Source of the DNA: a virus
IMG/VR virus record: IMGVR_UViG_3300045955_000127
Location: 1 to 58,537 of that record
Reading direction: 5' to 3' (one strand)
Length of the DNA: 58,537 nt
Position 1 is the first letter of the stretch, and each line of letters begins with the position of its first letter. The position numbers and the translations under genes were made by a program. The notes under the pieces are model-generated. The model was not told the DNA's origin. It did no database searches and was given only the letters and a program-made list of their open reading frames with translations. This document shows, in pieces, positions 9,865 to 27,320 of this stretch.

Positions 9865-12800
9865 TTAATCGCCTCCGAAACTAGGATTTGCCACGGTTAG
9901 GCAGGGTGTCACATCGTGAGTGAAATTTACCCCGCCAACTATGCGCGGCTGGAAACAGAATTGATCTCCTACCACTACATCTGGATCTATCTTAATCAGC
10001 GCGATAAAGTTCGTCGTTGAATCCTCTGTTAAATCTACCGTAGGGTTAGTGGCCTCTTTGCCTATAACCGCGCCCGCAACAAAACTGCCATGTGGGTCGG
10101 TTGTTAAAGCTGACGTGATTGGCTCGGCGTCAAAGAGTGTTGTACCCGAAGCTACCCCGAACGCCACGCCTACAGCATTGGTGCAGGTAGAATTAAAGCT
10201 GCCCGTGGTAGAGTTAAATTCGTTGCCGGTACAGGTGACTTGTCCCGCTGTGGAGTTGTCTACAATATTTGTTCCATTGAGTCGGTTCTGGGTAAAGCCC
10301 AGAGAGGCGGGTATATGAGAGCCTGTACCGTTGGTTATGCGTCCGCCATTGATCGTGTTGTTACTGATAACCGTATTATCAAGTGAGTTTCGGATCGCGT
10401 CTTTTCCCGTGTCGGGTAGGCTAAATGAATTGGCATCTACGGTGACTTGAAAATTCTGGTACTCCTCCGCTACGCCATCATTGCCGAGGTTGATGCACCT
10501 GTTGAAATCACAATCTACAAAAACATTACTCTGTACCAGCCTGATCGAACCGGCTCCGGTGCCAGTTTGAATGAGCATGATACCCGTAGTGATATTTGTC
10601 CCATCGAAATAATTCCCGATGTAATTGACCGTGGCCCCAGCCGCGCTGCCTTTGTCGTCTATGCAATTCTCAGACAGGCACTGAGGAAACCAGTTGTAAG
10701 AAACCTCGTTGACTCCATCTATATCGCCAGGATCTGCTGCTGCTGCGTTGCCGATTTGCAGGTTATCCTCTGCATCGGTAGCAGTCTGGCTGATCTTGTT
10801 TCGGGTGATAAGAAGGTTCTTGGCCTTGCGCCCGCCCGAGCCCACATTGTTGCGGATGTAAACCGCCATCTGCCCCAATCCGCCAGTGACATTGTGGACA
10901 ATCGCGTTACCTCGGAGAATCGCTCCGTCCACATCGCCCGCGAATTTAACCGTAGAACGACTGCCAGTGCCTGATGCCGTGACGGTGTTATTCTCGTACT
11001 TACTGCCGGTTGCCCAGACTGTGCCGTTGAGAACCGTGGGTCGAAACAGCGCACACGCAGCGCCACTTGAGCAATTATGCTCGAAGCCCCTGACTTCGAC
11101 ATTGGCACCGATCTCAATCTCACCGACGATTTCTATCGCCTCGCAGTTGTAGGGTTTTAGAATCGTCGGATTGCCGCTTGTGCCCTCGCCTATTATCCAC
11201 GGGTTTCCAGCCACGGTAAAAGTCGCCCCACTGGTATTTCGCAGCAGGAATGTCCCGCCCGTAGAGTTTTCGAGCGCTGCTTCCCATCCGTCTGCGGTTG
11301 TCAAAACTGTGCCTGTGGTGGTGCAGGACTCGTTAGCCTCGCCATAAGTAAGGGTAAGCGGGTTGGGGTTTTGGGGGGGCAGCGTTGGAGGCCCCGATGC
11401 CGTAGTATCCGTCATTCTGGCATAGCTGCCGCCGTTGTGATTCGCCCAGATTTCAAACCCGGCTGGATCGCAATTACCGCCCGTACAGTCAACACCGAAA
11501 GTCAGCGCGGTGTAGCCGCCCCTCATAACAGATGCCGCCGTCGCCTTATCTTCGGGACCACGCCACTTGGGAGATGCCAGCGTGCCATCAAGATGAAACC
11601 AGCGAAAGTTGATCGTGGTCAGAACCGCCGCGCCACCACCGGCCACGTTGTTTTGAAAGGTTTGGAGCGCAAAGGATAGAATATCACTATCCAGACAGCC
11701 AAAAACCTCACCACCGATACACTCATTTCCGGTCAGCTGCGTGCCCGCTGCCCCCGGCCTGGTGTAAGATCCCTTGATTGTGTTGCCGGCTGCAACCGTA
11801 CCGGCGATTCCAATACTCACTCTGGCCGTTTGCGAGAGGGCACAGTTACTTTCAGTCTGTCCGACATCACCGCCGCCCGTGTCGATTGTGACGTTGAAAT
11901 GCTGCGTGGTGCAGCTCTTTAATCCAACACCACCCCTAATTGCCTGCGTAGGCACGCTAAAATTATACCTAAAGGTACCCGCGTCACCGTTTTCAACTGT
12001 GCCCGTGGAGAATCTAATTGTCTGGAAAGCACCAATGTCACAGGTATTCCCTGGGGCTATACACTGATAGCCGTTAGGGAGTCCGGTGCGTGTACCCTGA
12101 GCCAAAAGTGAAGATCCTTCACTTGGGGTAAACCTATTCTGAGAAACATCTACGAAGACGGTGGCATCGGTTCCAAAGTGATTATTAGAAACCGTGTGAC
12201 TGCCTCCAGATTCGTCAATGCTGTTATTTTCATTGTTTACACAAGCGTTGTTTCTAATAACGTGCCCGCTACCGAAATCAGAGTGTACCCCGATGCAAAA
12301 GTTTTGGTTATTGTAAATCGTGTTGTTATACACCTTGATGTTTAGGTTTCTGCCGGAATTAGTCGTGCCGGATACCGTGATTCCATCGCCGGTCGAGCCC
12401 GGCGTGATAGTGCCGTCCTTCAGAATATTGCCGTAAACTTCGGAGCTGTCGTTGTCCTGAAGTAAAATTCCCGTTTTGCCGTGTTGTAGAATGAAGTTGA
12501 AGCGAATCTTCAGCCGCACCATAGAGTTCGCGCCGGACTCGTTAGCGTTCGTCGCTTGAATGCCAAGCCCGATAGTGTCATGCACGTAATTTCGTTCAAT
12601 GATGCAATCGACACACTTGCCAAAATAAATTCCATGCCCCGGATTGCTGCTGGCGATGTTGCCGCAGTTAAACATTTGGTTGTTCACAACCTCTGTCAAG
12701 CTATTTGATGACGATAGGCCCGCCTGGGTGATAAAGCAGCTCGACCCGCTCGATGCAGTAGTTGTGGAGTCGTGAAATATAGAGTTGTACCATTTTAGAC

Positions 12801-13254
12801 CGACCGTGGAGCCTTGCGTCCCGCCGCAAAACACTAGAGACACGGAACAATCAAAATCAATATTGTCGAACGTGATCCAGCTGCGGCCATTTTGGACCAT
12901 TGCGGGGCCAGAGGTAGGACGTATAATTGCTGCTTGGTTAGAGTCCCAGCCGCGGACTATAGTTGGGTTGCTCTGTGTGCCCGAGGGAAAATTCTTGCTG
13001 TTGTTCGACCAGAATCCTTCGTTATAAGTTCCGGCTTTAATGTTTACAGTATCGCCGCTGGACATGCACAACCGCGCCTCTTCGATGGTATCGAAATGGT
13101 CGGCGTTGGCAGAGCCTGGATCGGTTGAACTTTCTGCGGCTCCGCAACTCGCAGCAGTTCCCCCCGGCTTAACCCAGTATGTTGCAGCGTTCGAAATCCC
13201 AACCGTCAGTATGTACAGAAAGAGCGTGAGTATGATTTCTCTTGTTATCTTCAT
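9865..13254 (-). CDS. Secreted-type double beta-helix appendage protein (1129 aa)
   Basis: Begins with a Sec signal peptide (MKITREIILTLFLYILTVGI, cleavage near SNA-ATYW). Residues ~25-410 are a right-handed parallel beta-helix of the DUF1565/NosD type, with Asn-rich turns (RNYVHDTIGLGIQATNAN, SEVYGNILKDG) and a typical end motif DIGAFQ. Residues ~420-630 are beta-sandwich-like. Residues ~640-1080 form a second beta-helix (VEVRGFEHNCSSG, NNTVTASGTGSRS). Cysteines are numerous and often paired. Phage beta-helices usually bind or cut surface polysaccharide; an exported one is unusual. ATGA overlap with the upstream gene. Confidence 0.85.
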   Translation of the reverse strand: MKITREIILTLFLYILTVGISNAATYWVKPGGTAASCGAAESSTDPGSANADHFDTIEEARLCMSSGDTVNIKAGTYNEGFWSNNSKNFPSGTQSNPTIVRGWDSNQAAIIRPTSGPAMVQNGRSWITFDNIDFDCSVSLVFCGGTQGSTVGLKWYNSIFHDSTTTASSGSSCFITQAGLSSSNSLTEVVNNQMFNCGNIASSNPGHGIYFGKCVDCIIERNYVHDTIGLGIQATNANESGANSMVRLKIRFNFILQHGKTGILLQDNDSSEVYGNILKDGTITPGSTGDGITVSGTTNSGRNLNIKVYNNTIYNNQNFCIGVHSDFGSGHVIRNNACVNNENNSIDESGGSHTVSNNHFGTDATVFVDVSQNRFTPSEGSSLLAQGTRTGLPNGYQCIAPGNTCDIGAFQTIRFSTGTVENGDAGTFRYNFSVPTQAIRGGVGLKSCTTQHFNVTIDTGGGDVGQTESNCALSQTARVSIGIAGTVAAGNTIKGSYTRPGAAGTQLTGNECIGGEVFGCLDSDILSFALQTFQNNVAGGGAAVLTTINFRWFHLDGTLASPKWRGPEDKATAASVMRGGYTALTFGVDCTGGNCDPAGFEIWANHNGGSYARMTDTTASGPPTLPPQNPNPLTLTYGEANESCTTTGTVLTTADGWEAALENSTGGTFLLRNTSGATFTVAGNPWIIGEGTSGNPTILKPYNCEAIEIVGEIEIGANVEVRGFEHNCSSGAACALFRPTVLNGTVWATGSKYENNTVTASGTGSRSTVKFAGDVDGAILRGNAIVHNVTGGLGQMAVYIRNNVGSGGRKAKNLLITRNKISQTATDAEDNLQIGNAAAADPGDIDGVNEVSYNWFPQCLSENCIDDKGSAAGATVNYIGNYFDGTNITTGIMLIQTGTGAGSIRLVQSNVFVDCDFNRCINLGNDGVAEEYQNFQVTVDANSFSLPDTGKDAIRNSLDNTVISNNTINGGRITNGTGSHIPASLGFTQNRLNGTNIVDNSTAGQVTCTGNEFNSTTGSFNSTCTNAVGVAFGVASGTTLFDAEPITSALTTDPHGSFVAGAVIGKEATNPTVDLTEDSTTNFIALIKIDPDVVVGDQFCFQPRIVGGVNFTHDVTPCLTVANPSFGGD

Positions 13255-14321
13255 TGGAAAAATATCGGCGCTATGCGACGACGGCTCGACCCTGCCGCTG
13301 CCGGAATTGCTCTAATGGCATACCAGTAATAATCAACACCTGATTCGTTGACCCTGAGGTTTGTTCCCACTTCAAAACCATTGACTAAAAAATCCTGAAT
13401 CTGATCCGTTCCACACGTAGCCGTAGTTGCCACACATGACTCATCGCCGGAATTGTCCTTGAATCTAAAAGTCATCACGTTATTTGCTGTCGCACTATTG
13501 GCTTTCATCAAAAGAAATTCCGGTTGAAACCCAAGGGTTGTTATTTGCCTATCGTCGCTTGCATCGCCGGCGTAGGTGCCATCTATCGAGCTACCGCCGG
13601 CGTTTTTCATGGCCCAATAATGCACTGTATCAGTAGCGCCGTTGACAAAGCCGCTAGTGCCAACCTCAAAGCCGTTGGAATTTAATGCTTGAATCCTGTT
13701 TGATGTTGCGCACGATGCCCCGCTAGCTTGCGAGCAGGTCTGATCTCCGGTCAGTGCCGCAAATTTGAAAACAAAAACATCGCTGCTTGTTTCTGTCTGT
13801 ACGGCTACAAAATCGGGCTGAAAATCGTTGGCGTCGCTGGTGTCGGAAATATCAATGTCGCGCGCATCGAGACCATCTCCAGCATAAGTGCCCACGGCAA
13901 AATCATCGTTAACACCATCCTTGGCGAGCGCGAGATAAAAACACGTCACGCCGCTTGCGTTGACTTGATTGTCAGACCCTATCTGAAATCCGTTGGCGCT
14001 AAATGCCTGAATTCTGTTCGTCACGGGTCCAGCGTTTGTATTAAGAACAAGGGAAGCATCAGCTCCCATTGTTGCCGTGCTCCAAACTGCTTGTTCAGTG
14101 GTATTGCATTTGACAATTACCAATTCGGGCTGGAAATCCGTCACGCTTGGCGTCGTAGTGTCGGAAATATCTATGGTGCGGTTGTCTGTGGCGTTGCCGG
14201 TATAGGAGCCGCTGGCCATCAAGTAACCGAAGCTTGTTTCGGGAACGAAAACCGGGCACAATAAAAGAGCGGCTAGGAAGACGTTCCGAAGCCCCTGTTT
14301 CCTGGCAGGGATGCCGCGCAA
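13251..14321 (-). CDS. Three-repeat adhesin-like appendage protein, start uncertain
   Basis: Three tandem repeats of about 100 residues, each with GSYTGN/GTYAGD...IDIS, FQPE(L/F), a Cys pair, RIQAxxxNGFxxG and a final Tyr-rich strand. This repeat resembles the DUF7483-type beta domains of bacterial and phage surface proteins. No ATG lies at a sensible place. TTG 14321 gives a signal-peptide-like N-terminus (RNVFLAALLLCPVFVPETSF) with GGGG just upstream; GTG 14339 is an alternative. The open frame continues upstream antisense through the HNH gene at 14355, so the original 5' end may have been displaced by that insertion. Confidence 0.7.
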   Translation of the reverse strand: MRGIPARKQGLRNVFLAALLLCPVFVPETSFGYLMASGSYTGNATDNRTIDISDTTTPSVTDFQPELVIVKCNTTEQAVWSTATMGADASLVLNTNAGPVTNRIQAFSANGFQIGSDNQVNASGVTCFYLALAKDGVNDDFAVGTYAGDGLDARDIDISDTSDANDFQPDFVAVQTETSSDVFVFKFAALTGDQTCSQASGASCATSNRIQALNSNGFEVGTSGFVNGATDTVHYWAMKNAGGSSIDGTYAGDASDDRQITTLGFQPEFLLMKANSATANNVMTFRFKDNSGDESCVATTATCGTDQIQDFLVNGFEVGTNLRVNESGVDYYWYAIRAIPAAAGSSRRRIAPIFFQ

Positions 14322-14354
14322 CTTACCCCAGGAATGCACGACAGGAGGTGCAAT

Positions 14355-15017
14355 ATGGCAGCTCATAACTTCAAAGACATTACGGGTCAGCAGTTCAGCC
14401 GCTTGAACGTATTGCGGCGCGCGCCCAATAACGCGCTTAACCAAGCCACGTGGCTCTGTGTATGTTCCTGCGGACGGCAAATTACTGTCCTCGGGAACAA
14501 GTTGCGCAGTGGTCATACTCGTAGCTGCGGCTGCATTAACGTCGAGCGATGGTTGCGCGAACGGACCACGCACGGATATTCCAAATCTCCTGAGTGGCGA
14601 ATTTTTCAGCACATGAGAGACCGTTGTAATAACCCGCGCTGTAAAAACTTTCGCGATTATGGCGGACGCGGAATTAAAATGCTCTTCTCTTCTTTTGAAG
14701 AATTTCTCGCTGAAGTGGGGCTGCGACCAACGCCGAAGCACTGGATTGAGAGAATATGCAACGATGGCCATTACGAATCGGGAAACGTGAAGTGGGCTAC
14801 CAAGATTGAGCAAGCCAATAATACCCGCGCGAATCATTTCATTACCTTCAAGGGAGAAACTAAGACGGTGGCGCAATGGGCTACGCAGTTGGGAATTAAC
14901 GTCGGCACGATCCATGCACGTATACATGCTGGCCGGTGGTCGCCTGACAGAGCTTTGTCCACCCCAACACTTATATATTGGTCAAGGCAAAAGCGTTCCT
15001 GGAACGCGAACAGGTAG
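14355..15017 (+). CDS. Antisense HNH homing-type endonuclease (220 aa)
   Basis: The only plus-strand gene within 46 kb of leftward late genes. ATG 14355 has AGGAGGT seven bases upstream. Order: NFKDITGQQFSRLNVLRRAP, a cysteine zinc region (WLCVCSCGRQ, TRSCGCINVE), PEWRIFQHMRDRCNNP, YGGRGIKM, then the HNH segment PKHWIERICNDGHYESGNVK and WATKIEQANNTR; the C-terminus (residues ~155-205) is a NUMOD/HTH-like module ending SPDRALSTP. The usual DRIDNDG reads ERICNDG, so activity may be changed. The insertion splits off a signal-peptide ORF at 15018-15076. Confidence 0.88.
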   Translation: MAAHNFKDITGQQFSRLNVLRRAPNNALNQATWLCVCSCGRQITVLGNKLRSGHTRSCGCINVERWLRERTTHGYSKSPEWRIFQHMRDRCNNPRCKNFRDYGGRGIKMLFSSFEEFLAEVGLRPTPKHWIERICNDGHYESGNVKWATKIEQANNTRANHFITFKGETKTVAQWATQLGINVGTIHARIHAGRWSPDRALSTPTLIYWSRQKRSWNANR

Positions 15018-15076
15018 GCATGAGCAGGAGTTACCCAGAGCAGCCCCGCCAGGATGAGGGCTTTAATAAGTCGCAT
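15018..15076 (-). pseudogene. Orphan signal-peptide start, cut by the HNH insertion
   Basis: From ATG 15076, overlapping the end of the upstream gene by 14 bases as a coupled gene would, the frame encodes a complete Sec signal peptide: MRLIKALILAGLLWVTPAHA with an A-x-A cleavage site. It then runs antisense into the C-terminus of the HNH gene, where the protein no longer makes sense. It looks like the 5' end of an exported appendage gene whose body was separated or lost; the body may be the gene at 13251-14321. Confidence 0.5.
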
Positions 15077-17696
15077 TGATACTAATCCCAATCAGGTGTA
15101 ATCCGGTAAACGCATCCTCATAGTCCGTCGCTGTCGCATCCACATCGCCGGTAAACGTCACCCAATCACCCGCTGCTGGAGTGTTAGCGATGGTGATCGG
15201 CGCCGTAGTACAGCTCATATAATCTTCAGTCTGGTTGTTGAACGTACACGTCGCCTGCACATTCGCCGCCGTCGGGTCTGTAACCGCCGCGAACTGGTTC
15301 CCCGGCGCGTAAGAATCCCCGCCCCAATCCACAGCGAAGTCATTGAGCGAAGCCGTAGCCGAGAACATGTGCATCGTCAGCGTAACCGTTCCAGCGTTCC
15401 ACGTTGCCGGCATTGGGAGCGAGAACTTAATGCGACAAGCGTTGTCGTCCGCAGGGTTTATAGTAAGAATGTCGTCGTTGGGTAGGGCTTTCTCAGTTGG
15501 TGTTTGGTCGGTGCAGCTCGCAGACCCCTTCATGTAGGCTGCTGGGATGAAAATAGACTTGACTGCTGCGGCAGTCGCAACATTGGCCCAGCTGCCATTT
15601 ACCCTAACCCTCAATGCGTCGGTGTCGGTGCGGTAGAACAAATCCCCATCGGTGACTTGCGCTGTTGGATCGGCTGCGCCGCTGCCCGGATTGACCCCCT
15701 GCGCACCGCCGACAAACTTATGGTTCCCCTGCATTGCCAGCGTGCCAGTGCCGGTCGCAGTAGCATCGGGGTTGGCTATAATGACCGCCGAGTCATCGTC
15801 CTCGTCCCAAAGTGCCCACGTAAACCCAACCGGAACTAAGGTTCTCCTGTCAGCATCTGTGCAGGGTTTCCACAACGGCCCATGCGTGGCATCGGTAAAT
15901 CCGCACATCGGCGTGACACCATCGCCAATCCGTACGGAGTTTCCTAGATTGTTAGCCCCAGTGAATGTATTGACGCCAGTGAAGGTATTATTTCCAGCGA
16001 GGGTAACATCGCCGGCGCCGCCTGCCGCCTGGTCCCAAACTGCCGCCGCCACCGTACTGTCGATCAAATCCCAGCATCTTTGATTCTCGGTTCCTGCGGA
16101 ATTACACCATCGCGTTACGCCGGCTATATAGCCATCGCCGGAGTCGTCATTTTCATCTGGATCGCGGGTTTCTAAAACTCGGGAGATTTTACAAGTGAGA
16201 TTGCCTTGAGCATCTATCGCGTGAGCGAAGACTCCAACATTGGTGCTCGTTATTGTGCAGTCCGTTGGATTACTGGCAAGACTCCCGGCGCTGCCGGTTG
16301 TGTTTGAATTTAGATAGGCAAGACTTTGGCTTGCTGTGCCGTCGTGAATCTTGGGTATTCCCGTGGTGGAATCTAGGCCAAATTCCCCCGGGGCCGCTGG
16401 AGTAAACCCCGCCGAGTTGGGCACTTCGATTGTTACCGCGCCGAAGTCCTGCTTGCCTGATGTATAGGTAGTAGCCGCCCCGCGGCTTACGTAGTCAGTG
16501 CCCGCCGCCGCCGCCGCTATATTCCCCCCGCCATCGGCTTTAACGATGCCCGTTATAGCGCCGACGATTGGGTCGCTCTCAGTGATCGTTACCGTGGTAT
16601 CTGGATCGTCATCGGTGACATTTACGGCAGTGCCGACAAAATTGAGATTGTTGCGCTGCGTGAGCGGCGTTCCCTCATTTTCGATCGTATGACCACCGCC
16701 AACCGACGTAGGGCAATTGGTGCCGTCTTCCTGGCAAACGCTGGTGCCTCCAATGGTAACATCGACGGTCGCCGCAACCGAACCAGAGCTGAGAGTGTCC
16801 GTACCTTTATCGTAAGTAAGGCTGCTATCCGTGCCACAAGCTCCGGCATCATTGAAGGTTACTTCGGTATCCGATCCGCAAGCGCCGCCACCTGAGCCCG
16901 GCGGGCGCGCAAAGCCGATCACCGAAGGCGTGCCGGTTATCTTCAAAGTTCCTGGCGTGCCCGAAGCGAGAACCGCCTTAACGGAAGTGGCGCCAGACAC
17001 GTTGCAGCGAAAGACGCCCTCCGCGGCCAGCCATGTCGTGCTGGTATAGGTCGTCCCGCCATCGAGTGAGTAACAATCGGTTGCCTCGAACTGCTGTCCA
17101 TCTGTACTGGTCTGGATAGAGAATGTAGAGCTATTAAAATCTCCGGTAGCGGTGATCAGCAGCACTTGACGGCCACCGATCGGATGAATGGGATTTTGCA
17201 CTGGCGTGGTCGAACTGTTGTAAAGCCCCATCGAAGGAATCACGTCTACCGGGTAGAGGCTGCCTACGGATCCGGCCGGCGTCACGTTCCCCACCATCGA
17301 TGCGTTCGCGCTAATCTTCACTGCTGTGGGCGAGCCGCTATTCAAAACGGCCTTCACCACTGCGGCGCCAGACACGTTGCAGCGCCATGTTCCGGGGGCA
17401 GTGATCCAGCCGTTAGCCGTAAATGTTGTAAGCCCGTCCATCGAGTAACAGTCTGTGTTAGCGTAGGTGATCCCATCGCCGCTGATTTGCACATGGAAGG
17501 TTGCGCTATTAAAAGTCCCCCCGGCGGTCACTTGGAGGACTTGCCACCGCCCGTTTAGGTTAAATGGGTTTACTGAGCCCGAGATCGTGTTGTTATAGAG
17601 CAGGAATTCGGTGAAGATCGGCCCCACTGTGGTTTGGCTGAAAACGGAAGTCGTTAAGCAGAAAACATAAAATAGAAGAGCAAAAAAAATCTTCAT
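15063..17696 (-). CDS. Secreted-type tail-fibre-like protein (877 aa)
   Basis: Signal peptide MKIFFALLFYVFCLTTSVFS then QTTVG. Two N-terminal repeats of about 125 residues share LxITAxGxFNSxTFxxQxSxDG, a DCYSxDG segment and a WRCNVSG/FRCNVSG segment, giving two Cys pairs that suggest disulfides. Next are tail-fibre-like strands and hinges (SDPIVGAITGIVKADGGG, TLAGNNTFTGVNTFTGANNL) and a C-terminal beta domain (MPATWNAGTVTLTMHMFSAT, FAVDWGGDSY). The architecture is that of a receptor-binding fibre, but with an export signal. AAGG precedes ATG 17696. Confidence 0.8.
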   Translation of the reverse strand: MKIFFALLFYVFCLTTSVFSQTTVGPIFTEFLLYNNTISGSVNPFNLNGRWQVLQVTAGGTFNSATFHVQISGDGITYANTDCYSMDGLTTFTANGWITAPGTWRCNVSGAAVVKAVLNSGSPTAVKISANASMVGNVTPAGSVGSLYPVDVIPSMGLYNSSTTPVQNPIHPIGGRQVLLITATGDFNSSTFSIQTSTDGQQFEATDCYSLDGGTTYTSTTWLAAEGVFRCNVSGATSVKAVLASGTPGTLKITGTPSVIGFARPPGSGGGACGSDTEVTFNDAGACGTDSSLTYDKGTDTLSSGSVAATVDVTIGGTSVCQEDGTNCPTSVGGGHTIENEGTPLTQRNNLNFVGTAVNVTDDDPDTTVTITESDPIVGAITGIVKADGGGNIAAAAAGTDYVSRGAATTYTSGKQDFGAVTIEVPNSAGFTPAAPGEFGLDSTTGIPKIHDGTASQSLAYLNSNTTGSAGSLASNPTDCTITSTNVGVFAHAIDAQGNLTCKISRVLETRDPDENDDSGDGYIAGVTRWCNSAGTENQRCWDLIDSTVAAAVWDQAAGGAGDVTLAGNNTFTGVNTFTGANNLGNSVRIGDGVTPMCGFTDATHGPLWKPCTDADRRTLVPVGFTWALWDEDDDSAVIIANPDATATGTGTLAMQGNHKFVGGAQGVNPGSGAADPTAQVTDGDLFYRTDTDALRVRVNGSWANVATAAAVKSIFIPAAYMKGSASCTDQTPTEKALPNDDILTINPADDNACRIKFSLPMPATWNAGTVTLTMHMFSATASLNDFAVDWGGDSYAPGNQFAAVTDPTAANVQATCTFNNQTEDYMSCTTAPITIANTPAAGDWVTFTGDVDATATDYEDAFTGLHLIGISINATY

Positions 17697-17703
17697 AACA
17701 GAT

Positions 17704-18618
17704 TTACCTTCTGTCGATATCTAGCCCAAGACCGAAAATGCTGTTGGATGGCGATGCGCCACTCCATTGCGCCGTGATATCCAAATCTTGAACGATCGAA
17801 GAATCGGCCCCGCTGGCAGCGATTCTGCTCAGGGTAAATAGATTGGCTATCCCTCCGATGTTTAACGATGACGACTCGAGAAATCCCAATGAGGAAGTCG
17901 ATTGTGAATTGGCGGAATTTCGAGCGTGCAGACGCGACCGTAACGCTACCCCGACATTAGCAACTAGGCCGCCCGTGGGGTTCGCTATCGGCAACGTGAA
18001 TAATTCAACACCAGCGTAACGCAGCCGGATGGTCACCGTAGCTGCCGCCACAATCCCGATGATCTCAAAGTCGCAGTTGATATGAAGAAAACGATTTGTG
18101 CTAAGAAGCCCAGCCGCGATCTGTTTTGAATAAAGATCAGTTTCGCTGGCGGTGTTCGTTACATCGGGCTCGCTAACGTCTTTGATTAAAGCCGCGCTGT
18201 CAATCCGGACATTGCCTCCCGAGGGATTGACGGCTTCGCTGCCATTGCCATTGATAAAATTTATCAGGAGCTGCGATTGCAGGTTGACGCCGTTTGCCTG
18301 GATTGTGGCTCCAGACAAAGAGCCCTCAAAGACAGTGCCAGCCAGCAACGCCGCGATGCTCCCCGTTGCCGACCCCGGCACGATTCCCGTAACCGGCATC
18401 CCTGTACCGATGGTTACCGAAACGATCGCAGTCTGAGGCAATGCAATCGGGCTCAATGCCCCGCTTGAATTCGAGATCGTCGAGGCGATGCTTACAGCGA
18501 TCACGGACCCGCCGATGATTTGCTGCGGAACGCTGATGACGACAAGCGTATTCGGGAGAGCGACCCCGTTCGCGTTATAGAGCGTGCCCGAGACTATGCA
18601 AGTTCCTGGAGCTGGCAT
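17704..18618 (-). CDS. Beta-rich structural protein (304 aa)
   Basis: Start ATG 18618 is preferred because a G-rich ribosome site lies upstream and the longer frame overlaps the neighbour. N-terminal residues resemble a carboxypeptidase-regulatory/Ig-like sandwich (CIVSGTLYNANGVALPNTLV); the middle is low-complexity Ser/Gly/Ile; the C-terminal ~130 residues are a beta domain ending IFGLGLDIDRR. No signal peptide. Probably a fibre or baseplate-like component beside the fibre gene; function not established. Confidence 0.65.
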   Translation of the reverse strand: MPAPGTCIVSGTLYNANGVALPNTLVVISVPQQIIGGSVIAVSIASTISNSSGALSPIALPQTAIVSVTIGTGMPVTGIVPGSATGSIAALLAGTVFEGSLSGATIQANGVNLQSQLLINFINGNGSEAVNPSGGNVRIDSAALIKDVSEPDVTNTASETDLYSKQIAAGLLSTNRFLHINCDFEIIGIVAAATVTIRLRYAGVELFTLPIANPTGGLVANVGVALRSRLHARNSANSQSTSSLGFLESSSLNIGGIANLFTLSRIAASGADSSIVQDLDITAQWSGASPSNSIFGLGLDIDRR

Positions 18619-18623
18619 AAGAG

Positions 18624-19001: not shown

Positions 19002-19315
19002 TATCCAATTTCTCCCGTGAGCGACCAAAGAATTTCGAATACCCGCGCCTCGGCAACACCGCTATCGGCTTCGAGGCGCAACTTCTCCGCATGGAAGATC
19101 ATCACCATCTGAGCACCGTCTGCCGTCAACTCAATCTCCGTCGTTCCGCTCTTGAGCAATGCGTTATTGGTCTTTCCCCATACGCGGATATTGACTGCCT
19201 CCGCTAATGTCGTTGGCGAAAGGATCAGAACCGCCATGGGCGACCGGCTGCCCAACGAGATCTCATTGGAGTTTTGCTCGCCGTTTGGAATCGTCAGTAA
19301 ATCGGAGCGTGCCAT
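19001..19315 (-). CDS. Small beta-sandwich structural protein (104 aa)
   Basis: Beta-rich throughout: SPMAVLILSPTTLAEAVNIR, IELTADGAQMVMIFHAEKLR, ending VFEILWSLTGEIG. No cysteines, no membrane segment. Coupled downstream by TAATG. The size and location suit a decoration or baseplate subunit; unknown family. Confidence 0.6.
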   Translation of the reverse strand: MARSDLLTIPNGEQNSNEISLGSRSPMAVLILSPTTLAEAVNIRVWGKTNNALLKSGTTEIELTADGAQMVMIFHAEKLRLEADSGVAEARVFEILWSLTGEIG

Positions 19316-19317
19316 TT

Positions 19318-19566
19318 TCAGGTGATCCTTGTAATGTCCGTGATATCTGCGATCAAAAGCAGCCTACCCTCTACTACGCCGCCGCCCCCCCACAAACTCT
19401 CTGGCATTCCCCAGAGTAATTGTTGCTGGTCGTCCTGCCCTAATGCGCCCGGCGAAACCGGCAACCCCGGTTCCCAGACCTGGCACCACTCCATAAAGGC
19501 CAACTTTAGATTGTTGACAGCTTCCGGCCCAGCTCCGCCGCCTTGAAATAGGAGTAAAAGGCTCAT
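19318..19566 (-). CDS. Small structural protein, unknown (82 aa)
   Basis: Starts at ATG 19566, overlapping the upstream stop as ATGA. Sequence begins MSLLLLFQGGG and continues with a Trp-rich middle (MEWCQVWEPG) and a Gly-rich turn. The N-terminus is too short for a membrane helix. Unknown function; kept because of the tight fit between neighbours. Confidence 0.5.
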   Translation of the reverse strand: MSLLLLFQGGGAGPEAVNNLKLAFMEWCQVWEPGLPVSPGALGQDDQQQLLWGMPESLWGGGGVVEGRLLLIADITDITRIT

Positions 19567-20318
19567 CTCCCTACTCCCATCAGCGACATAGTGGAGCCGC
19601 CTGCCGCTGCCCCCGCTACCTCCGCTATGGCAAAATGGATAAACGCCCTGTCATCTGTAGCGCCAGAGGAATAGCCTACCGATCTGCTTCCGCTCCCCGG
19701 CGTGGTTTCGCGGCCCATCATCATCACACGCGATCCTACGTCCATGTCATGGAGATGGGTGCTATTAGTTCCAGCCGAGGGTAAGTCCGCCAGCCCAGAG
19801 CGACCACAGACTAATCGAAGGGCCGTCACCGCGCCCGAATCAATTGCCTGTTCGGCGAGTGTGCCGTCCTCTTCCAAAAGTACACGGGTTCCTACCTCTT
19901 CCGTATCGCCCCCTGCGGTAAAGGTCACGGCGACCGCATAAGCCTCATTGGCGCTATTGTCTCTTGTGACAACCACAGAGGCGGGATCATCTGTCGGTAC
20001 GGATCCACCTAAAAACCAGACGGTCGCCGTAGCAAATTCCCCTATTGTATCTTGCGCCACGGTTCCAAGCCTCGCCAGCGGCACCCCAACATAAGTGACT
20101 GCGCTCACAAGAGTTGGGGTATCGTCGTCATTCCCCATAACACACACGGCAACTCCTCTAGGAGTACCCACGGGGTCATGATCCCATGTAAAACTCGCCT
20201 CGCTAGTCGAGGGCGTTGTCGCGGTATGCGATTCACTAGCAGCGTCAAAGGCAACAACCGCCCACGCGGGACGAGCAATCAATAGGGCGACAAACAAGAC
20301 TGCAAGTCGTTTCATCAT
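19563..20318 (-). CDS. Secreted-type beta-sandwich protein (251 aa)
   Basis: Signal peptide MMKRLAVLFVALLIARPAWA then VVAFDAASES; GAGGT precedes the start. The mature part is one or two beta-sandwiches (SFTWDHDPVGTPRGVAVCVM, ATVWFLGGSVPTDDPASVVV) ending with SVGYSSGATDDRAFIHFAIA. The closing strand pattern (a/tDxRAxxH) recurs in the middle of the next protein (20315-21892), so the two probably share a domain. Six exported proteins in this block suggest a common extracellular role. Confidence 0.7.
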   Translation of the reverse strand: MMKRLAVLFVALLIARPAWAVVAFDAASESHTATTPSTSEASFTWDHDPVGTPRGVAVCVMGNDDDTPTLVSAVTYVGVPLARLGTVAQDTIGEFATATVWFLGGSVPTDDPASVVVTRDNSANEAYAVAVTFTAGGDTEEVGTRVLLEEDGTLAEQAIDSGAVTALRLVCGRSGLADLPSAGTNSTHLHDMDVGSRVMMMGRETTPGSGSRSVGYSSGATDDRAFIHFAIAEVAGAAAGGSTMSLMGVGR

Positions 20319-21892
20319 GGCGGCGATACCTCATTGAAGCTTGCATTCTCGTCGCCTATCTTTATCGAGTCCATGTAATGAATAAGCGTATCGTCTGGGT
20401 TAGGATTTTGCAGGTTCCACCACGATTTATAAATCCCGAACCTGACAATGCTACTCTTGTTGCACGCAGGGAAGGTGCCGTCACACACCATATTAGGCCC
20501 ATTTTGAGTAACTACCTTTGAACCGTTTTTCCAAATTTCCAGCAATCCCGTAGGCACGCCGCCTGACCCAGTTGACCAAATCACATGCACAACAAATTTC
20601 GTCCATTGCCCTTTGGCAATTGCGCCCAAGTTGTATGATGTCTCCGTTACAGTGCTATTGGTATTGCACCCCGTCGTGCCGTCAGCAAAATTCACCGCTA
20701 AAAGGTTGTCATTCGGCAGTACACGGAAGGCCAGATGCTGCCCGGTAAATGTGTCGCAGGCATCATTTGTGCGGTGCCACTGATAAACAATGGTTCCATT
20801 TGGGTCATTCGTGTTATCGTCCCATGTCGAATCAAAATAAATAGCGAATCCGTACCATCTTTCAGTCCCATTTGTCTGCGTGGCGTTCCAGCCTAGCATG
20901 GTCTTACCGGGGGTATTGCCGGATACGGGATCGCCATCGCTTGATTCAAACCGCACTGATTGTGTACCGTCATTGGCTTGTGCACTAGAAAGCGCGTGAG
21001 AATGTGCACAACAACCATTAGCATCTATCAAGTCGGGGTCCGCGCCGCTTAAAACAGTCCCGGTCTCAAAATTTGCGGTGTGGGTGATATTATCGCTCGT
21101 TGGCGGGGGGTCGGTATCATCGGGCGGACGGATATCAACGACTTGATGCACGTATGCCCGGGCATCAGGCTTATCCCAGGTCATCGTCACGCTCGCGGCT
21201 CCGGCTTTTGTTGACGCGCCGCTCTGACGATTGGTGAGTGATGCGTTTACGCCCGCCGACTTTTGCCAGAGTGAGCCTTGCCCGGCTCCCGGTGCAATAG
21301 TTTCATTATTCGGCACAGTGGTGCAAAGATGGTCAAAGACTATTCGCTGTGTCGCGCTTGAAATCATCGTTGATGGGGTTGTGCCGGTGCCAAAGGACGC
21401 CGAAATGGTCCCGAGCGGGGTTGTGCCATCCACGTCCTGAAAGTGAAAAATACCAAACGCCATGTTTTGCGCTGCGGTGGCAGACACAGTAAATGTCTGT
21501 GCTCCGGCTGTAGGGGCAATTAAACGATAGATCGCGGCCCGGACGGTTGGCGCAGTGCCCGTTACCTCATTTGCATCTGCGCTGTAACGCGTAAACGCTC
21601 CGTCCTCGCTCGAAGATACGGAGATATCGTGAGTGGAACTGCGGTGACAGACGCCAGCAATCGTTAAATCCGTATTGGCGGGTACGACTTCATCGACTTC
21701 CAGCTGCGTGCAATTTTCGCAGCCGTAGGGATCGGGCGGGTCAGGTGGATCAGGTGGATTTAGCTCTATGTCGCTCCGAAATGGACGTGGCCCGGACAGC
21801 GCCCTATCAGCCAGGTCCCTAATGACCTGCGCGGTAACAATCTGCGCCGCTAGGCCGATCAGGAGAATTATGCCGATAATGAAATATCGCAT
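20315..21892 (-). CDS. Secreted-type heparin-lyase-fold protein (525 aa)
   Basis: Signal peptide MRYFIIGIILLIGLAAQIVT then AQVI; Pro/Asp-rich linkers (NPPDPPDPPDPYG, PPDDTDPPP) separate domains. Residues ~60-250 match the beta-sandwich of the neighbouring protein. Residues ~265-525 resemble the PF14099 polysaccharide-lyase fold (heparin lyase I/glucuronan lyase): RFESSDGDPVSG, WYGFAIYFDSTW, VYQWHRTNDAC, GQWTKFVVHVIWSTGSGG, IWKNGSKVV, RFGIYKSWWN. It could cut or bind acidic capsular sugar. Catalytic residues cannot be confirmed by eye. Confidence 0.72.
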   Translation of the reverse strand: MRYFIIGIILLIGLAAQIVTAQVIRDLADRALSGPRPFRSDIELNPPDPPDPPDPYGCENCTQLEVDEVVPANTDLTIAGVCHRSSTHDISVSSSEDGAFTRYSADANEVTGTAPTVRAAIYRLIAPTAGAQTFTVSATAAQNMAFGIFHFQDVDGTTPLGTISASFGTGTTPSTMISSATQRIVFDHLCTTVPNNETIAPGAGQGSLWQKSAGVNASLTNRQSGASTKAGAASVTMTWDKPDARAYVHQVVDIRPPDDTDPPPTSDNITHTANFETGTVLSGADPDLIDANGCCAHSHALSSAQANDGTQSVRFESSDGDPVSGNTPGKTMLGWNATQTNGTERWYGFAIYFDSTWDDNTNDPNGTIVYQWHRTNDACDTFTGQHLAFRVLPNDNLLAVNFADGTTGCNTNSTVTETSYNLGAIAKGQWTKFVVHVIWSTGSGGVPTGLLEIWKNGSKVVTQNGPNMVCDGTFPACNKSSIVRFGIYKSWWNLQNPNPDDTLIHYMDSIKIGDENASFNEVSPP

Positions 21893-22816
21893 TTAGAATT
21901 GAGCGTAACTGATATCGACCCCGATATTCGCAGCTCCCGATTGAGTCACACATAGAGCATCGCCGCCTGCATCGGATTTGAGCACCATCCCAACACCCGA
22001 CCCGCGTGAAATACCTACGGTTGCGCCTGCGGTAAGAATCATGCCGGATGATCTATCCGCCTGACTTGTAGCGCAATCAGTTCCCGTGCCGGATACGAAC
22101 TTAACCGAGGTTTGAGCATCGCCTTCGCTGACAATGGAAAAACTACAAACATAAATAACAGTTGATCCCGACAGGGCAACGATTTCGGTCGTTGTCGCTG
22201 TGGTCATGTTAAGAAAAGCATTATTAGTGCATTTGATATCCGCATTGCCGTTGGCCCCTTGGGTCTGTACGGCCACAGTTCCGTCGGAAGTAGTTTTAAC
22301 ACGCCGCGCCGTGGAGCCGCCGTCGTCCGATCCAGAGATTTGAATGTCGTCGATGGTATCGCTGAGGGCAGTAATTAGATTAACTAACGTCAGTCGCAGG
22401 TTAGACGGCACCCCCACTGCTCGCCCCGTCACGGTCACGGTCCCGGCTGAGTAACCGGATATTCGCGCTCTGACGGCTTGCAGGCCCGCGACAGGGATTT
22501 CCCATATCGTGACGCCCGAAGTGGTTACTGTCGTATCAAGCACCTGAGTTCCCAGTTGCACGGCATTGAGAGCGGAATAGTTTGTGGCGTCCCCCGTTCC
22601 CTCGAAATTGACAGTTGTGCCACCGGAGCATGAGGCGCAGTTGACGGTAACAATGACGGTGGACATGCCGCTAACTGTTAAAGCCGTGCCGTTGCCGTCG
22701 GCTGTTGCGGCGTTTTGTAGAGTACCCGAGATAATCGAACCTTCAATCGTAACAGGCTGTTGCGACCAAACATGAACCGGCCACAAAAGAGCAATGATTA
22801 AAATTAGTTTTTTCAT
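21893..22816 (-). CDS. Secreted-type structural protein (307 aa)
   Basis: ATG 22816 is chosen: ATGA overlap with the upstream stop, GGAG before it, and an immediate signal peptide MKKLILIIALLWPVHVWSQQ. The N-terminal half is Thr/Val-rich beta with a CASC pair; the C-terminal half (CTNNAFLNMTTATTTEIVAL, YVCSFSIVSEG, GTGTDCATSQAD) matches the domain of the protein at 26853-27320, including the GTGTxCAT motif. Probably a paralogous exported beta domain. Confidence 0.7.
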   Translation of the reverse strand: MKKLILIIALLWPVHVWSQQPVTIEGSIISGTLQNAATADGNGTALTVSGMSTVIVTVNCASCSGGTTVNFEGTGDATNYSALNAVQLGTQVLDTTVTTSGVTIWEIPVAGLQAVRARISGYSAGTVTVTGRAVGVPSNLRLTLVNLITALSDTIDDIQISGSDDGGSTARRVKTTSDGTVAVQTQGANGNADIKCTNNAFLNMTTATTTEIVALSGSTVIYVCSFSIVSEGDAQTSVKFVSGTGTDCATSQADRSSGMILTAGATVGISRGSGVGMVLKSDAGGDALCVTQSGAANIGVDISYAQF

Positions 22817-23808: not shown

Positions 23809-24453
23809 CTATGGCCCCGTTACCCACTCGCCCTTTGTAACCGTACCGCCCGCAGAGCTTGTGGATTGTTTTTGATCTACTGTACTTTCATCGTCGGCGT
23901 ATAGTTGCGTGGTCGTGCCATCATTGTCCTTTTTGTTCCGCCAAGACTTGTAGATGTAATTTATTTTCGCGGCGAGGGTGGTTGTCGCTGCCGGCGCTCC
24001 CTGCCCCGGCTCCGCATAGGTATCGGTCGCTAGGGCATCCACAACCTCGGCGTTAACTTGGGCGGCACTTAGATCGTTTAGCGCCGCTACGAGATTAAAC
24101 TGTTTAGGCACGGGCGATGCCGCGCTAGTTGTTACCATCACATAAACAACCGCGTACCACGCGCCCGTGGCGAATACGGCATCAGCAATATCAAGCCTGT
24201 AAAGTCCCGGCGCTAGGGTATTGGAAACCTCTTTCAACCCCCAATCTGTATGAGCGTCCGTAAGCGCAGATAAGTCGCTCAGGCTTGATGTTACATCGGT
24301 AACGACAACATCATTATCTGTTTCTACCCTGGTATAAGATACAGTTAAATCGGAGGAATCCAATCCAGTCGCACCACTGCCATCGGTTTGTGCCGAGTCG
24401 GGAATAAAAACCAGAATCGTTCTGTCGGTTGTGCCTATGAGAATATCTTCCAT
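23809..24453 (-). CDS. Phage structural protein, unknown (214 aa)
   Basis: N-terminal residues 1-130 form a beta-sandwich (RTILVFIPDSAQTDGSGATG, LAPGLYRLDIADAVFATGAW) followed by a helical end (DLSAAQVNAEVVDALATDTY) and a basic KINYIYKSWRNKK segment. This design is common between a beta-helix protein and the tail genes of uncultivated short-tailed phages. It ends where the repeat protein begins. Confidence 0.6.
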   Translation of the reverse strand: MEDILIGTTDRTILVFIPDSAQTDGSGATGLDSSDLTVSYTRVETDNDVVVTDVTSSLSDLSALTDAHTDWGLKEVSNTLAPGLYRLDIADAVFATGAWYAVVYVMVTTSAASPVPKQFNLVAALNDLSAAQVNAEVVDALATDTYAEPGQGAPAATTTLAAKINYIYKSWRNKKDNDGTTTQLYADDESTVDQKQSTSSAGGTVTKGEWVTGP

Positions 24454-25568
24454 TAGACCAACCCGCCCGACATACTACGTGGATAATTTAGTCCGCCGCC
24501 ACTCGATACGTGTTGCACGGCACCTTTATCTAAATTCCCACCGGGATACGCGCCGCCCCAGACGTTATCAACGTCCAGCGGAGCAAAGTACACAAAGCGG
24601 TTAGCGAAGGTGTTGCTGCCGGACTTGGCAAAGGGGGTAGAGCCGAGACTTTCGTTGTCGTCGGTGAAGACGGTGTCGGAATCCAAATCATAGGCAGTTG
24701 CACAATTAAAAACTGCGTTATTTGCAACCGCCCAGTTGTCCATTGTCGTAGTCCAGTCGTTTAGAGAAATGCCTATTCCCCCAGTACCACTGAAACCTTC
24801 TATTAAATTGTTGAACACGACCACGGAGCCGTTAGTATCGAAGTAAATCCCTTTCCCTGTCCCGCTCGAAGATAAAATAGAGTTATGGGCGATAATTATA
24901 TTGGCGTTTCCTCCAAAACACTGAATCCCATCATTAGCACTGCTAGCCTTTAGGGTAATTATGTTTCCCCAGATCGTTCGGTTAGATTCAGCCGCTCTGA
25001 TCGCCATACCGTTGCTAAACGTGTTGGTCGGCCCCTCGAAAAACCAACTACCAAATACATTCGCGTGCAACGCCACGCCCCCGCAATTAGAAAAGCTACA
25101 CCCGAAAACCCCACCATGATTTGCCCCGCCGTTATTATCTAAGGCCGAACCGTTGCTATTGTCGAAAAAAACACAATCTTGAAAATAATTTCTCCCATCA
25201 CCATCAACAATCACTATCTTTTCTGTGCCAGTATTGTGAAGATTCAGCCCTATAGCCGACACATGGTTTTTGTTCCAAAGAGCAAAATTGCCGTTGTTTC
25301 CGTCTAAACCCCCGGCACCGTCTGGCCCGCCGACCCAATTTCTCAAAACTGTTTTAGCTGTAAGCGTGGGACTCCCCCATGTAGTAAAGTCCAGGGACGC
25401 CGATAAAACGTCCTCGCCGCTCACAAAAATTTTATCACCGTTAGTCGTATCCCTGGTTACGTTATCCAAGACGTGCTGTACGGTTTGAAACGGGTTGCCG
25501 CTTGAACCGTCGCCAGTCGCGTCGTCACCTGACGTAGTGGCGACGTATGTTTCTGTAAGCGCACCCAT
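24453..25568 (-). CDS. Parallel beta-helix appendage protein (371 aa)
   Basis: The start MGALTETYVATTSGDDATGD and NPFQTVQHVLDNVTRDTTNG are the hallmark of DUF1565-type right-handed beta-helices. Coils continue to about residue 300 (NHGGVFGCSFSNCGG, HANVFGSWFFEG, IIIAHNSILSSSGTG), ending NLDKGAVQHV. No signal peptide, unlike the other beta-helix at 9865-13254. Typical role: tail-spike-type binding or depolymerisation of host polysaccharide. Confidence 0.8.
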   Translation of the reverse strand: MGALTETYVATTSGDDATGDGSSGNPFQTVQHVLDNVTRDTTNGDKIFVSGEDVLSASLDFTTWGSPTLTAKTVLRNWVGGPDGAGGLDGNNGNFALWNKNHVSAIGLNLHNTGTEKIVIVDGDGRNYFQDCVFFDNSNGSALDNNGGANHGGVFGCSFSNCGGVALHANVFGSWFFEGPTNTFSNGMAIRAAESNRTIWGNIITLKASSANDGIQCFGGNANIIIAHNSILSSSGTGKGIYFDTNGSVVVFNNLIEGFSGTGGIGISLNDWTTTMDNWAVANNAVFNCATAYDLDSDTVFTDDNESLGSTPFAKSGSNTFANRFVYFAPLDVDNVWGGAYPGGNLDKGAVQHVSSGGGLNYPRSMSGGLV

Positions 25569-25931
25569 TTACCCTAGCATCGCATTGATGCCACTGGCCT
25601 TAGTTGCCTGTGCCCTGAAGGGCGGGTTGGGTACGCCAACACTTGCGCCGCCATTACCCAAATCAACCACCTGACGGACGGACTCCATGAGGTTAAACAA
25701 TGTCGCTAATTCTGTCGCCGTCATATCATCGGCTCCCGCTAAACCGGACTTATTCGGCACAACTGCGCCAGCATCAAGCGTGGCGAAGATTGCTAGCCCG
25801 TTGGCATCATCGGCTATGGCTTTTAGGTGATTAAACACCCGCGCCACTTCGCCAGAGCCGGCGCGTACAAAGTTTACGAGATTGTCAACAATCCCTTGAT
25901 CCTGGGGGGATAATTCTGTGTATAGTGCCAT
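25569..25931 (-). CDS. Small structural protein, unknown (120 aa)
   Basis: ATG 25931 has AGGAG upstream (rc of the sequence at about 25938-25942); the open frame extends to 26012 but that part overlaps the neighbour. Product: MALYTELSPQDQGIVDNLVN, helical in the first half, Gly/Ala-rich in the second (GNGGASVGVPNPPFR). No family recognised. Confidence 0.6.
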   Translation of the reverse strand: MALYTELSPQDQGIVDNLVNFVRAGSGEVARVFNHLKAIADDANGLAIFATLDAGAVVPNKSGLAGADDMTATELATLFNLMESVRQVVDLGNGGASVGVPNPPFRAQATKASGINAMLG

Positions 25932-25950
25932 TGTAAAAACTCCTTTAATC

Positions 25951-26484
25951 TCAAAGCCCGTGATCCCTTTTCCACTTGCTAAAGGCGTCTTGAGTTTTCT
26001 TAAATTCTTCATCGAGCGCTTTGTTACGAGCGATTTTTTCTTTTTCCGCTTTAGCGTGCGTCTCTATTTTTGCGCGATAATCGGCGTCGGCTTTACGGTT
26101 CATATCCTTCGCCTGCTTTTCCATGGTCAAGATCGAACCTTCCAGTTCCGCAATCTTATCATTGAGGAGTTCGATTTCGCCGCCAAGTCGCGCTCCGAGG
26201 CCTTCAAACTCCCGCTCCTTCGCTGCTTTTTTCATCGCGAATTCCCGAGCGAGTTCTGCTTCGCGCTCTGCGTTGGCTTGCGTCAGGGAGTTAAGAGCCG
26301 CACGTTTGGCCGCAATCTGCTTCTCGATATCTGCCAACTCGCGCTCTCCGGACTCCTTTTTTTGCTTGATGCGGACATACTCACGGAGGCCGACGCCTGC
26401 CAGCGCCCGCAGTTTCACGTCCTGCTCGAGCTGGCGCGCTGCGTCCAATATTTGGCTGTCTGTCAACTCTGTTGGTTGAGCCAT
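25951..26484 (-). CDS. Coiled-coil protein (177 aa)
   Basis: Residues ~40-165 form an almost continuous charged coiled coil (ESGERELADIEKQIAAKRAA, KAAKEREFEGLGARLGGEIE, KIAELEGSILTMEKQAKDMN). It could be a stalk, chaperone or tape-like spacer; no clear homologue by eye. It begins MAQPTELTDSQILDAARQLE, four bases downstream of the upstream gene's stop. Confidence 0.65.
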   Translation of the reverse strand: MAQPTELTDSQILDAARQLEQDVKLRALAGVGLREYVRIKQKKESGERELADIEKQIAAKRAALNSLTQANAEREAELAREFAMKKAAKEREFEGLGARLGGEIELLNDKIAELEGSILTMEKQAKDMNRKADADYRAKIETHAKAEKEKIARNKALDEEFKKTQDAFSKWKRDHGL

Positions 26485-26487
26485 TGC

Positions 26488-26844
26488 TTACCCCTTTCTG
26501 ATCGCGATCGCCATCCCGATCGTTACTTTAGTGTCCGCGCTCCCGTCTACAATGCGCGGCATTATATGCGCCAATAGATCCATGGACCGTTTGATGGATG
26601 GTTGATCGAATACGAGATTGTTTCGTTCACCATCATTGATGTAATTAAATCGTCCCGGAATAATGCCTCCAAGAATTTCCACGCGGGCGCCTGCTAGGTC
26701 GCCTACCACATGAAAAGTTCTCTGCGTCGGTAGCCCGTAGAGTTGAAGATGCCCGTGCGGTTGTCCTTCGTCGCCGTTTCTAAGATCCTCCCAAATTACC
26801 ACCGAGCCGTCTTGGGTCAGAGTTTCCTTGAATAAAACCTGCAT
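26488..26844 (-). CDS. Hypothetical protein (118 aa)
   Basis: A good GTAGGAGG site precedes ATG 26844. Beta-rich N-terminal part (VLFKETLTQDGSVVIWEDLR) and helical end (SIKRSMDLLAHIMPRIVDG). It sits between an exported protein and a coiled coil. Unknown function. Confidence 0.6.
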   Translation of the reverse strand: MQVLFKETLTQDGSVVIWEDLRNGDEGQPHGHLQLYGLPTQRTFHVVGDLAGARVEILGGIIPGRFNYINDGERNNLVFDQPSIKRSMDLLAHIMPRIVDGSADTKVTIGMAIAIRKG

Positions 26845-26852
26845 CGTGCCTC

Positions 26853-27320
26853 CTACTGAGTGTACCCGCCAATGAACACATCGATCGTGTTAGTAGCCAC
26901 GCCGATCAAACAGATCGCGTGTCCGGTCGTTACCTTGATCGGCGTCGGCAAGGGGATGGCGTTTAGGCCGTTGGCCGCGATCGGTGCGTTGAACCTTTCC
27001 GATCCGTCGCCGATATTAGGGAATACGTTGGTAGTCTCCGTGGCGCAATTTGTGCCCGTACCGGATCTAAGCGCATAAGTGCCCGAAGTGCCCGTGCTTG
27101 TCTGGACGGCGATTAGGGTGATGTAATGACTTTGCGTGGACACGCCCGGCACGGCTTGGCATTGCGTCAGAGTCGCATCGATAGCCTGAAGAGAGCATCC
27201 GAACGCCGTCGGCGGCGTGGTCGGAATTACTCCCACCGCACCAAGATAATTCGGCGTACTCTGGCCGCTCGCCACCAATGGGAGCGCCAGAAGAAAAAGC
27301 GCCAAGAACAATTTTTTCAT
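26853..27320 (-). CDS. Secreted-type small beta protein (155 aa)
   Basis: Clear Sec signal peptide MKKLFLALFLLALPLVASGQ with a GGGGGG ribosome site upstream. The mature part carries paired cysteines (FGCSLQAIDATLTQCQAV and GTGTNCATETTN) and matches the C-terminal domain of the protein at 21893-22816 by the GTGTxCAT motif and flanking strands. It overlaps the gp10-like gene by one base. An exported domain directly behind a tail-hub gene is unexpected. Confidence 0.7.
   Translation of the reverse strand: MKKLFLALFLLALPLVASGQSTPNYLGAVGVIPTTPPTAFGCSLQAIDATLTQCQAVPGVSTQSHYITLIAVQTSTGTSGTYALRSGTGTNCATETTNVFPNIGDGSERFNAPIAANGLNAIPLPTPIKVTTGHAICLIGVATNTIDVFIGGYTQ

Follow-up and report, generated by a model that had tools for sequence, protein, structure and literature searches.

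Signal peptides on late appendage genes suggest that some tailed-phage fibres and decorations may be exported before joining the virion

Why should the late genes of a tailed phage encode proteins with Sec signal peptides (SPs) when, to our knowledge, tailed phages produce and assemble their parts in the cytoplasm? The question is raised by the IMG/VR virus record IMGVR_UViG_3300045955_000127, analysed here over its whole length of 58,537 nt (the window), which represents a tailed, temperate phage that encodes a tyrosine integrase (1532-2827), a P22-like portal, a terminase, a PF13252 capsid, an SU10-type adaptor and a nozzle-like protein. Its late genes lie on the - strand, where the fibre block occupies the stretch between the nozzle gene (27320) and position 9569. 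A preliminary description of the window had reported SPs at the coupled starts of six late genes in this block, and had proposed that part of the tail or fibre set is exported. We find it probable that the block encodes Sec-exported, disulfide-bonded tail and decoration proteins, which are attached to virions at or after lysis. Open-access papers yielded no published report of SP-bearing tail fibres; for the Bcep22-like phage JC1 the sole SP mentioned is that of the lysis protein Rz1, and SPs have been noted in cellular targets of diversity-generating retroelements (PMC8144416).

The SPs were called with a purpose-written, rule-based Sec/signal peptidase I (SPase-I) scorer, which identified 16 of the 17 E. 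coli SPs on which it was checked. Sec/SPase-I preproteins are marked by a positive n-region, a hydrophobic core of 8-14 residues and an AXA-like c-region at a real start. All 277 open reading frames (ORFs) of the window were scored, and a predicted SP with these features was found at the own start of the following six genes, named hereafter by their left coordinates.

26853..27320, - strand: predicted exported jelly-roll protein, 155 aa, 4 mature Cys; SP MKKLFLALFLLALPLVASG at 27320-27264; its ATG overlaps the stop of gene 27320, and it lies directly after the nozzle gene
21893..22816, - strand: predicted exported protein, 307 aa; SP MKKLILIIALLWPVHVWS (22816-22763); N-terminal domain with a CASC pair, C-terminal 4-Cys jelly-roll domain (22231-21896)
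20315..21892, - strand: predicted exported polysaccharide lyase, 525 aa, 10 Cys; PF14099; SP MRYFIIGIILLIGLAAQIVTA (21892-21830)
19563..20318, - strand: predicted exported protein, 251 aa, 2 Cys; SP MMKRLAVLFVALLIARPAWA (20318-20259)
15063..17696, - strand: predicted exported fibre-like protein, 877 aa, 18 mature Cys; SP MKIFFALLFYVFCLTTSVFS (17696-17637)
9865..13254, - strand: predicted exported right-handed beta-helix protein, 1129 aa, 30 mature Cys; SP MKITREIILTLFLYILTVGISNA (13254-13186)

These starts overlap the previous stop or sit no more than 4 nt from it, and that of a further, orphan SP lies 14 nt before the previous stop. When coupling or a Shine-Dalgarno sequence was required, seven SPs were counted on the sense strand of the window (the six genes and the orphan at 15076) and none on the antisense strand, the corresponding numbers in 0.91 Mb of relatives being 51 and 13. 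The six SPs of the preliminary description are thus confirmed, and so are its coordinates, except that gene 21893 starts at the ATG at 22816, eight codons inside the longest ORF. The scorer was also passed by ORFs 54739 (lipoprotein-like) and 54972, and by the weak or overlapping + strand ORFs 16689, 23030 and 47080, which look like chance. The predicted +1 residues in the block are A, Q, V, Q, Q, Q and Y, and charged residues occur near the predicted cleavage site of some SPs (19563 and, in relatives, L014 and L012:14877; relatives are cited by L numbers). None of the +1 residues is Cys and no lipobox is present, and on these grounds Sec/SPase-II lipoproteins were rejected. Lysis proteins, which account for most SP matches in control prophages, were rejected as the identity of the block by size, place and domains: SAR endolysins and spanins, the usual late proteins with an SP or a transmembrane segment, are short and lie in the lysis cassette, whereas the SP-bearing proteins of the window are beta-rich, comprise 155-1129 aa and lie in the tail block.

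Regarding the individual proteins, gene 26853 is confirmed by a second, near-identical assembly, the 8.9 kb contig L001 from a separate metagenome, in which one base in 8919 differs from the window. The 20315 protein matches PF14099 (E 1.3e-29, profile positions 17-210 of 210) and is therefore predicted to be a polysaccharide lyase; its homologue in the cultured Pseudanabaena phage Pan5 likewise has an SP. The 15063 protein comprises two N-terminal repeats, each with one Cys pair, and tail-fibre-type repeats (TFTGVNTFTGA). No match was found among cultured phages for the 15063 and 26853 proteins, and PDB sequence searches with the lyase and beta-helix proteins returned nothing.

Capsid-based scans for relatives added 79 viral loci, as well as 64 that come from bacterial genomes, the prophages with related capsids being mainly those of Alpha- and Betaproteobacteria. 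Cysteine content supports the use of the SPs in both data sets. In the window, the mature exported proteins (seven) hold 76 Cys in 3452 residues (2.20%) versus 25 in 7082 (0.35%) for 23 other late proteins (Fisher p 2e-18), and their counts, 30, 18, 2, 10, 6, 4 and 6, are every one even, in keeping with the richness in paired cysteines noted earlier. Among the relatives, the SP-bearing proteins with Cys divide into 108 even and 12 odd, versus 247 and 291 for the SP-less ORFs, a set that includes some false ORFs (Fisher p 1.5e-20); all statistics over relatives are somewhat inflated by redundancy, related proteins being not fully independent. Since exported proteins can form disulfides, this even and enriched Cys content is evidence that the SPs are used, and the gain or loss of Cys in pairs, together with the even totals, suggests that the exported proteins are disulfide-bonded, as predicted from their sequences.

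A further line of evidence comes from relatives in which an SP precedes a known tail-fibre N-terminus. The genes needed to follow it are these.

27320..28729, - strand: tail nozzle/stabilisation protein, phrog_3287, 34% identity to its L012 homologue, SP-less; the fibre block begins here
28737..29666, - strand: head-tail adaptor, PF24175 (SU10_adaptor), SP-less
30750..31967, - strand: major capsid protein, PF13252, SP-less; the query for finding relatives
17704..18618, - strand: SP-less fibre-set protein, starting M-PAPGTC; homologue in L012 (14895-15899)

In L027 and L073 the SP is followed by GLE..TYI..DDHIRLIKS-like residues, which constitute the N-terminus of PaP3-type tail fibres. The Bruynoghevirus (PaP3/LUZ24) fibre, PaP3 orf12, has the same GLE..TYI..DDHIR domain and pre-nozzle place as the L073 protein; it starts M-GLE, lacks an SP, is 66% identical to mature L073 over 56 aa and is encoded just before the nozzle. 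A scan for this DDHIR family, which used the mature N-terminus only and hence carries no SP bias, gave about 70 readable members. Nearly all of them begin M-GLE or M-ALE without an SP, whereas in L073, L163, L202, L230 and L027 an SP ends exactly at A/GLE (the slash marking the cleavage site). All five SP-bearing genes lie between adaptor and nozzle (with one small gene in between in L202), so that both the domain and the gene place of a Bruynoghevirus-type fibre are found in these five relatives; the SP-bearing proteins of the window, which lack the DDHIR domain, are not assigned to this type. No SP-less paralogue of the DDHIR fibre was seen in the available DNA of the five. The L073 protein ends in Peptidase_S74, a chaperone of phage fibres, and the fibre SP codons show a pN/pS of 0.24, i.e., purifying selection. 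A similar junction occurs in the window, where gene 17704 begins at the mature N-terminus of its homologue L012:14877, whose SP ends just before TAPATC. The preliminary description had regarded homologues starting downstream of the hydrophobic segment as a reason to doubt the SPs. Such homologues do exist, but they start exactly at the predicted cleavage site; from this, and because the SP-bearing members have no sensible downstream start (GLE, not M), it follows that the SP is a real added leader.

Two of the predicted exported proteins share a domain of 105 residues, which forms the body of the 26853 protein and the C-terminal part of the 21893 protein, and which is also present in L012 and L014 among the relatives and in two Synechococcus phages from culture. 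When IMG/VR was scanned with a single protein at a time (21893, the DUF7483 part described below, and L306), no relatives were found, and alignments were needed instead. The alignment scan with this domain gave 64 loci and 59 unique proteins, 52 of which pass the SP rule; visual inspection shows an SP-like leader in six of the other seven proteins, and the last is truncated at the start of its contig. The mature Cys total is even in 49 of 53 (p 7e-11), three of the four odd ones being cut at contig ends. Cys3 and Cys4 are present together in 58/58 domains, and Cys2 is accompanied by an upstream Cys in 32/33. The scan pattern held one cysteine and cannot count Cys-free members; other searches found SP-less homologues in phage structural regions with no Cys (L306 and S-CBS4 gp41) or one (L308). 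AlphaFold, run on 55 sequences, returned an all-beta model (pLDDT 94.5) whose predicted fold is jelly-roll-like. Its PDB matches are mixed and weak (Z no higher than 8.9; best Foldseek E 3e-3), and a kinship with jelly-roll cement and knob proteins of phages (KHP40 cement, HS1 needle knob) is possible. Viral models gave 46 matches at E 1e-3 or better, some entries being named virion structural protein, and the top structural matches are uncharacterised phage proteins. A sample of 611 bacterial genomes, searched without a positive control, gave one match, beside a capsid-like gene. SP-bearing jelly-roll genes also lie just behind genes of other tail types (in L247 that of a J-like/DUF2163 tail tip, in L261 those of a tape measure and a gpD-like tail protein), from which it appears that the SP habit extends beyond podoviruses.

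The remaining part of the block contains an SP severed from its own gene.

15017..15076, - strand: orphan SP MRLIKALILAGLLWVTPAHA, then YL; ATG 15076 in the stop region of gene 15063, to which it is coupled
14355..15017, + strand (antisense): HNH-type (homing-endonuclease-like) gene with its own AGGAGG; 34% to an HNH gene of phage Pan5
13251..14330, - strand: DUF7483/tail fibre protein, 6 Cys, phrog_24898; follows the SP-like segment LRNVFLAALLLCPVFVPETSFG; no ATG, start uncertain (GTG or TTG)

The orphan SP, which had been placed at 15018-15076, is upheld by both the scorer and its coupling. The HNH-type gene, which has no Pfam match, sits between this SP and the DUF7483 gene, and its stop codon falls in the two codons immediately past the SP. 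The frame 13251-14927 matches PF24299 (E 4.6e-16) and phrog_24898 (E 1.1e-25), and just before the DUF7483 domain (about 14291-14226) it contains the second SP-like segment. The possible SP suspected at 13251-14321 is therefore present as an SP-like stretch, but it has no ATG and fails the scorer. Tyr-Leu follows both the orphan SP and this stretch, and the arrangement is most simply explained by an apparent homing insertion of the HNH gene into the 5' end of a gene for an exported fibre. Among the relatives, none lacking the HNH gene was found that would match the orphan SP to its gene.

The SPs at real starts, the even Cys counts, the exact SP before a known fibre N-terminus in five relatives and the purifying selection together make export of part of the tail and fibre set a well-supported prediction, as earlier proposed; the set is not limited to adhesins, and comprises a polysaccharide lyase, a beta-helix protein and small jelly-roll proteins besides fibres. 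We infer that export, cleavage and oxidation actually occur and, with less certainty, that the mature proteins join virions, as homology and gene place suggest. About half of the mass of the appendage block would be made as Sec precursors; the host SecYEG would export the chains, signal peptidase I would remove the leader, and folding would follow in the periplasm, with the paired cysteines closed by the host Dsb system. Export by Sec, cleavage by SPase-I and oxidation by Dsb are what precursors of this kind normally undergo. Lysis would bring the disulfide-hardened fibres, spikes, lyase and jelly-roll decorations together with completed particles, to which they would bind by their N-terminal domains; those domains that can be recognised correspond to the ones of ordinary cytoplasmic fibres. 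For fibres with a canonical N-terminus, the mature protein would be the form that the virion needs, and it could meet virions no earlier than at lysis. In the window, the lyase and the beta-helix protein may take this route too, or may work as free proteins. Attachment after lysis is chemically plausible, since the tailspikes of P22 and the tail fibres of T4 are added to particles in lysates or extracts. With slightly more reserve, we lean towards an undescribed assembly route of tailed phages, in which fibres, spikes and decorations pass through Sec and periplasmic oxidation and are mounted only at or after lysis, in podoviruses and other lineages that are common in metagenomes and nearly absent from culture collections.

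Parts of this proposal have precedents. The filamentous phage proteins pIII and pVIII are virion proteins made as Sec precursors, and the disulfides of pIII are closed in the periplasm; these phages, however, assemble at the membrane without lysis, whereas the window encodes a tailed phage of the P22-portal type, and its P22-like portal, terminase and PF13252 capsid led us to reject a filamentous identity. The P22 tailspike is likewise a terminal receptor-binding/lyase appendage, and in extracts it can be mounted on particles that are already complete, but it has no SP and folds in the cytoplasm.

Several points weigh against attachment of the exported proteins to virions. Most SP-bearing proteins of the window have no recognised virion-binding N-terminal domain, and the lyase and beta-helix domains equally fit free enzymes. 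The SP calls come from a rule-based scorer, and the proteins are placed in virions by reasoning from sequence. The SP-bearing DDHIR fibres hold few Cys (0-3), which excludes that all SP-bearing fibres are Cys-rich and indicates that oxidative folding is not the whole reason for export. Very few carriers are cultured (two Synechococcus phages, Pan5 and some Methylobacterium prophages), and a search for virion data on them found none. The main rival, which we regard as rather unlikely, is that the proteins are exported but stay off the virion, acting as free lyases or adhesins that are periplasmic, sit on the dying cell or are released into the medium; by stripping or masking receptors or extracellular polysaccharide they would keep progeny from adhering to debris, an effect like that of T5 Llp, or let them spread through the matrix. 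It is favoured by the polysaccharide lyase and beta-helix domains, by the commonness of secreted lyases and by SPs that are all of the soluble SPase-I kind without a lipobox. T5 Llp and lambda Lom and Bor are also phage-encoded and SP-exported, but Llp and Bor are lipoproteins, Lom is a beta-barrel, and all of them modify the host instead of being fibre-like. Free action sits poorly with the SP-bearing DDHIR fibres, which retain the PaP3-type N-terminal domain and gene place, in one case with the S74 chaperone, and for which no SP-less paralogue was seen, as well as with the coupling of the genes within the structural operon and the presence of SP-bearing genes beside capsid and portal in relatives.

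If the leaders stayed uncut and anchored the proteins in the membrane or served for hydrophobic docking, for instance by keeping fibres at the inner membrane while they are assembled or by aiding ejection, the charged residues near the cleavage site in 19563, L014 and L012:14877 could be explained. We judge this improbable, given the consensus AXA-type c-regions of nearly all SPs, the SP-less homologues that begin exactly at the cleavage point and the paired cysteines, which require an oxidising compartment. Lysogenic conversion, in which the lysogen would display or secrete the proteins and so alter the host surface, accords with the integrase and with the SPs of known conversion genes of the lom/bor type, but appears very improbable for genes that lie in a late operon, are coupled start to stop with SP-less tail genes and have SP-bearing fibre orthologues in the place of a late structural gene. 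That the SPs are chance hydrophobic N-termini or wrong starts is hardly credible: although the scorer is rule-based and a few chance ORFs elsewhere in the window pass it, neither the strand counts (7 versus 0 in the window, 51 versus 13 in relatives) nor the selection on SP codons and the even-Cys statistics fit an artefact. If fibres and decorations are indeed exported and mounted at or after lysis, virion maturation includes an extracytoplasmic step, phage adhesins can use disulfides and the host Sec and Dsb systems are phage host factors; moreover, if Sec-routed fibres exist, phage adhesins will be mislabelled by filters.

Relatives also carry SP-bearing proteins beside capsid and portal genes. 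In L012 (9363-9800) and L013 (9364-9804), a predicted exported protein of 146 aa, which has 8 Cys in its mature part and no counterpart seen in the window, is encoded directly upstream of the major capsid gene. A conserved, predicted exported protein of 147-148 aa (MRKA..PAMA/VTFTAVGT), for which no match was found in cultured phages, occurs in L041, L045, L055, L057, L066, L070, L072, L077, L079 and L086 between the capsid and adaptor genes, about 0.5-1 kb past the capsid gene. The Methylobacterium prophages L111 (11746-13455) and L118 (5992-7698) encode SP-bearing proteins of 569 and 568 aa, respectively, near the capsid gene. The cultured Synechococcus phages Ssp-JY42 and Yong-M4-211 (L006/L007, 11872-14659) have two adjacent SP-bearing genes (138 and 786 aa; 11872-12288 and 12299-14659) between the tail genes and the endolysin.

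Two other features of the late region are worth recording. The head operon of the window holds sugar genes (32097-35599, - strand), namely a GHMP kinase (32097-33062) and a glycosyltransferase/methyltransferase fusion (33914-35599), which make virion glycosylation possible; relatives likewise have non-structural transferase-type genes near the capsid gene. Adjoining the portal gene, 41658-45989 (- strand) encodes a 1443 aa protein with an LPD38 domain (PF18857) and zero cysteines, which is probably an ejected internal protein.

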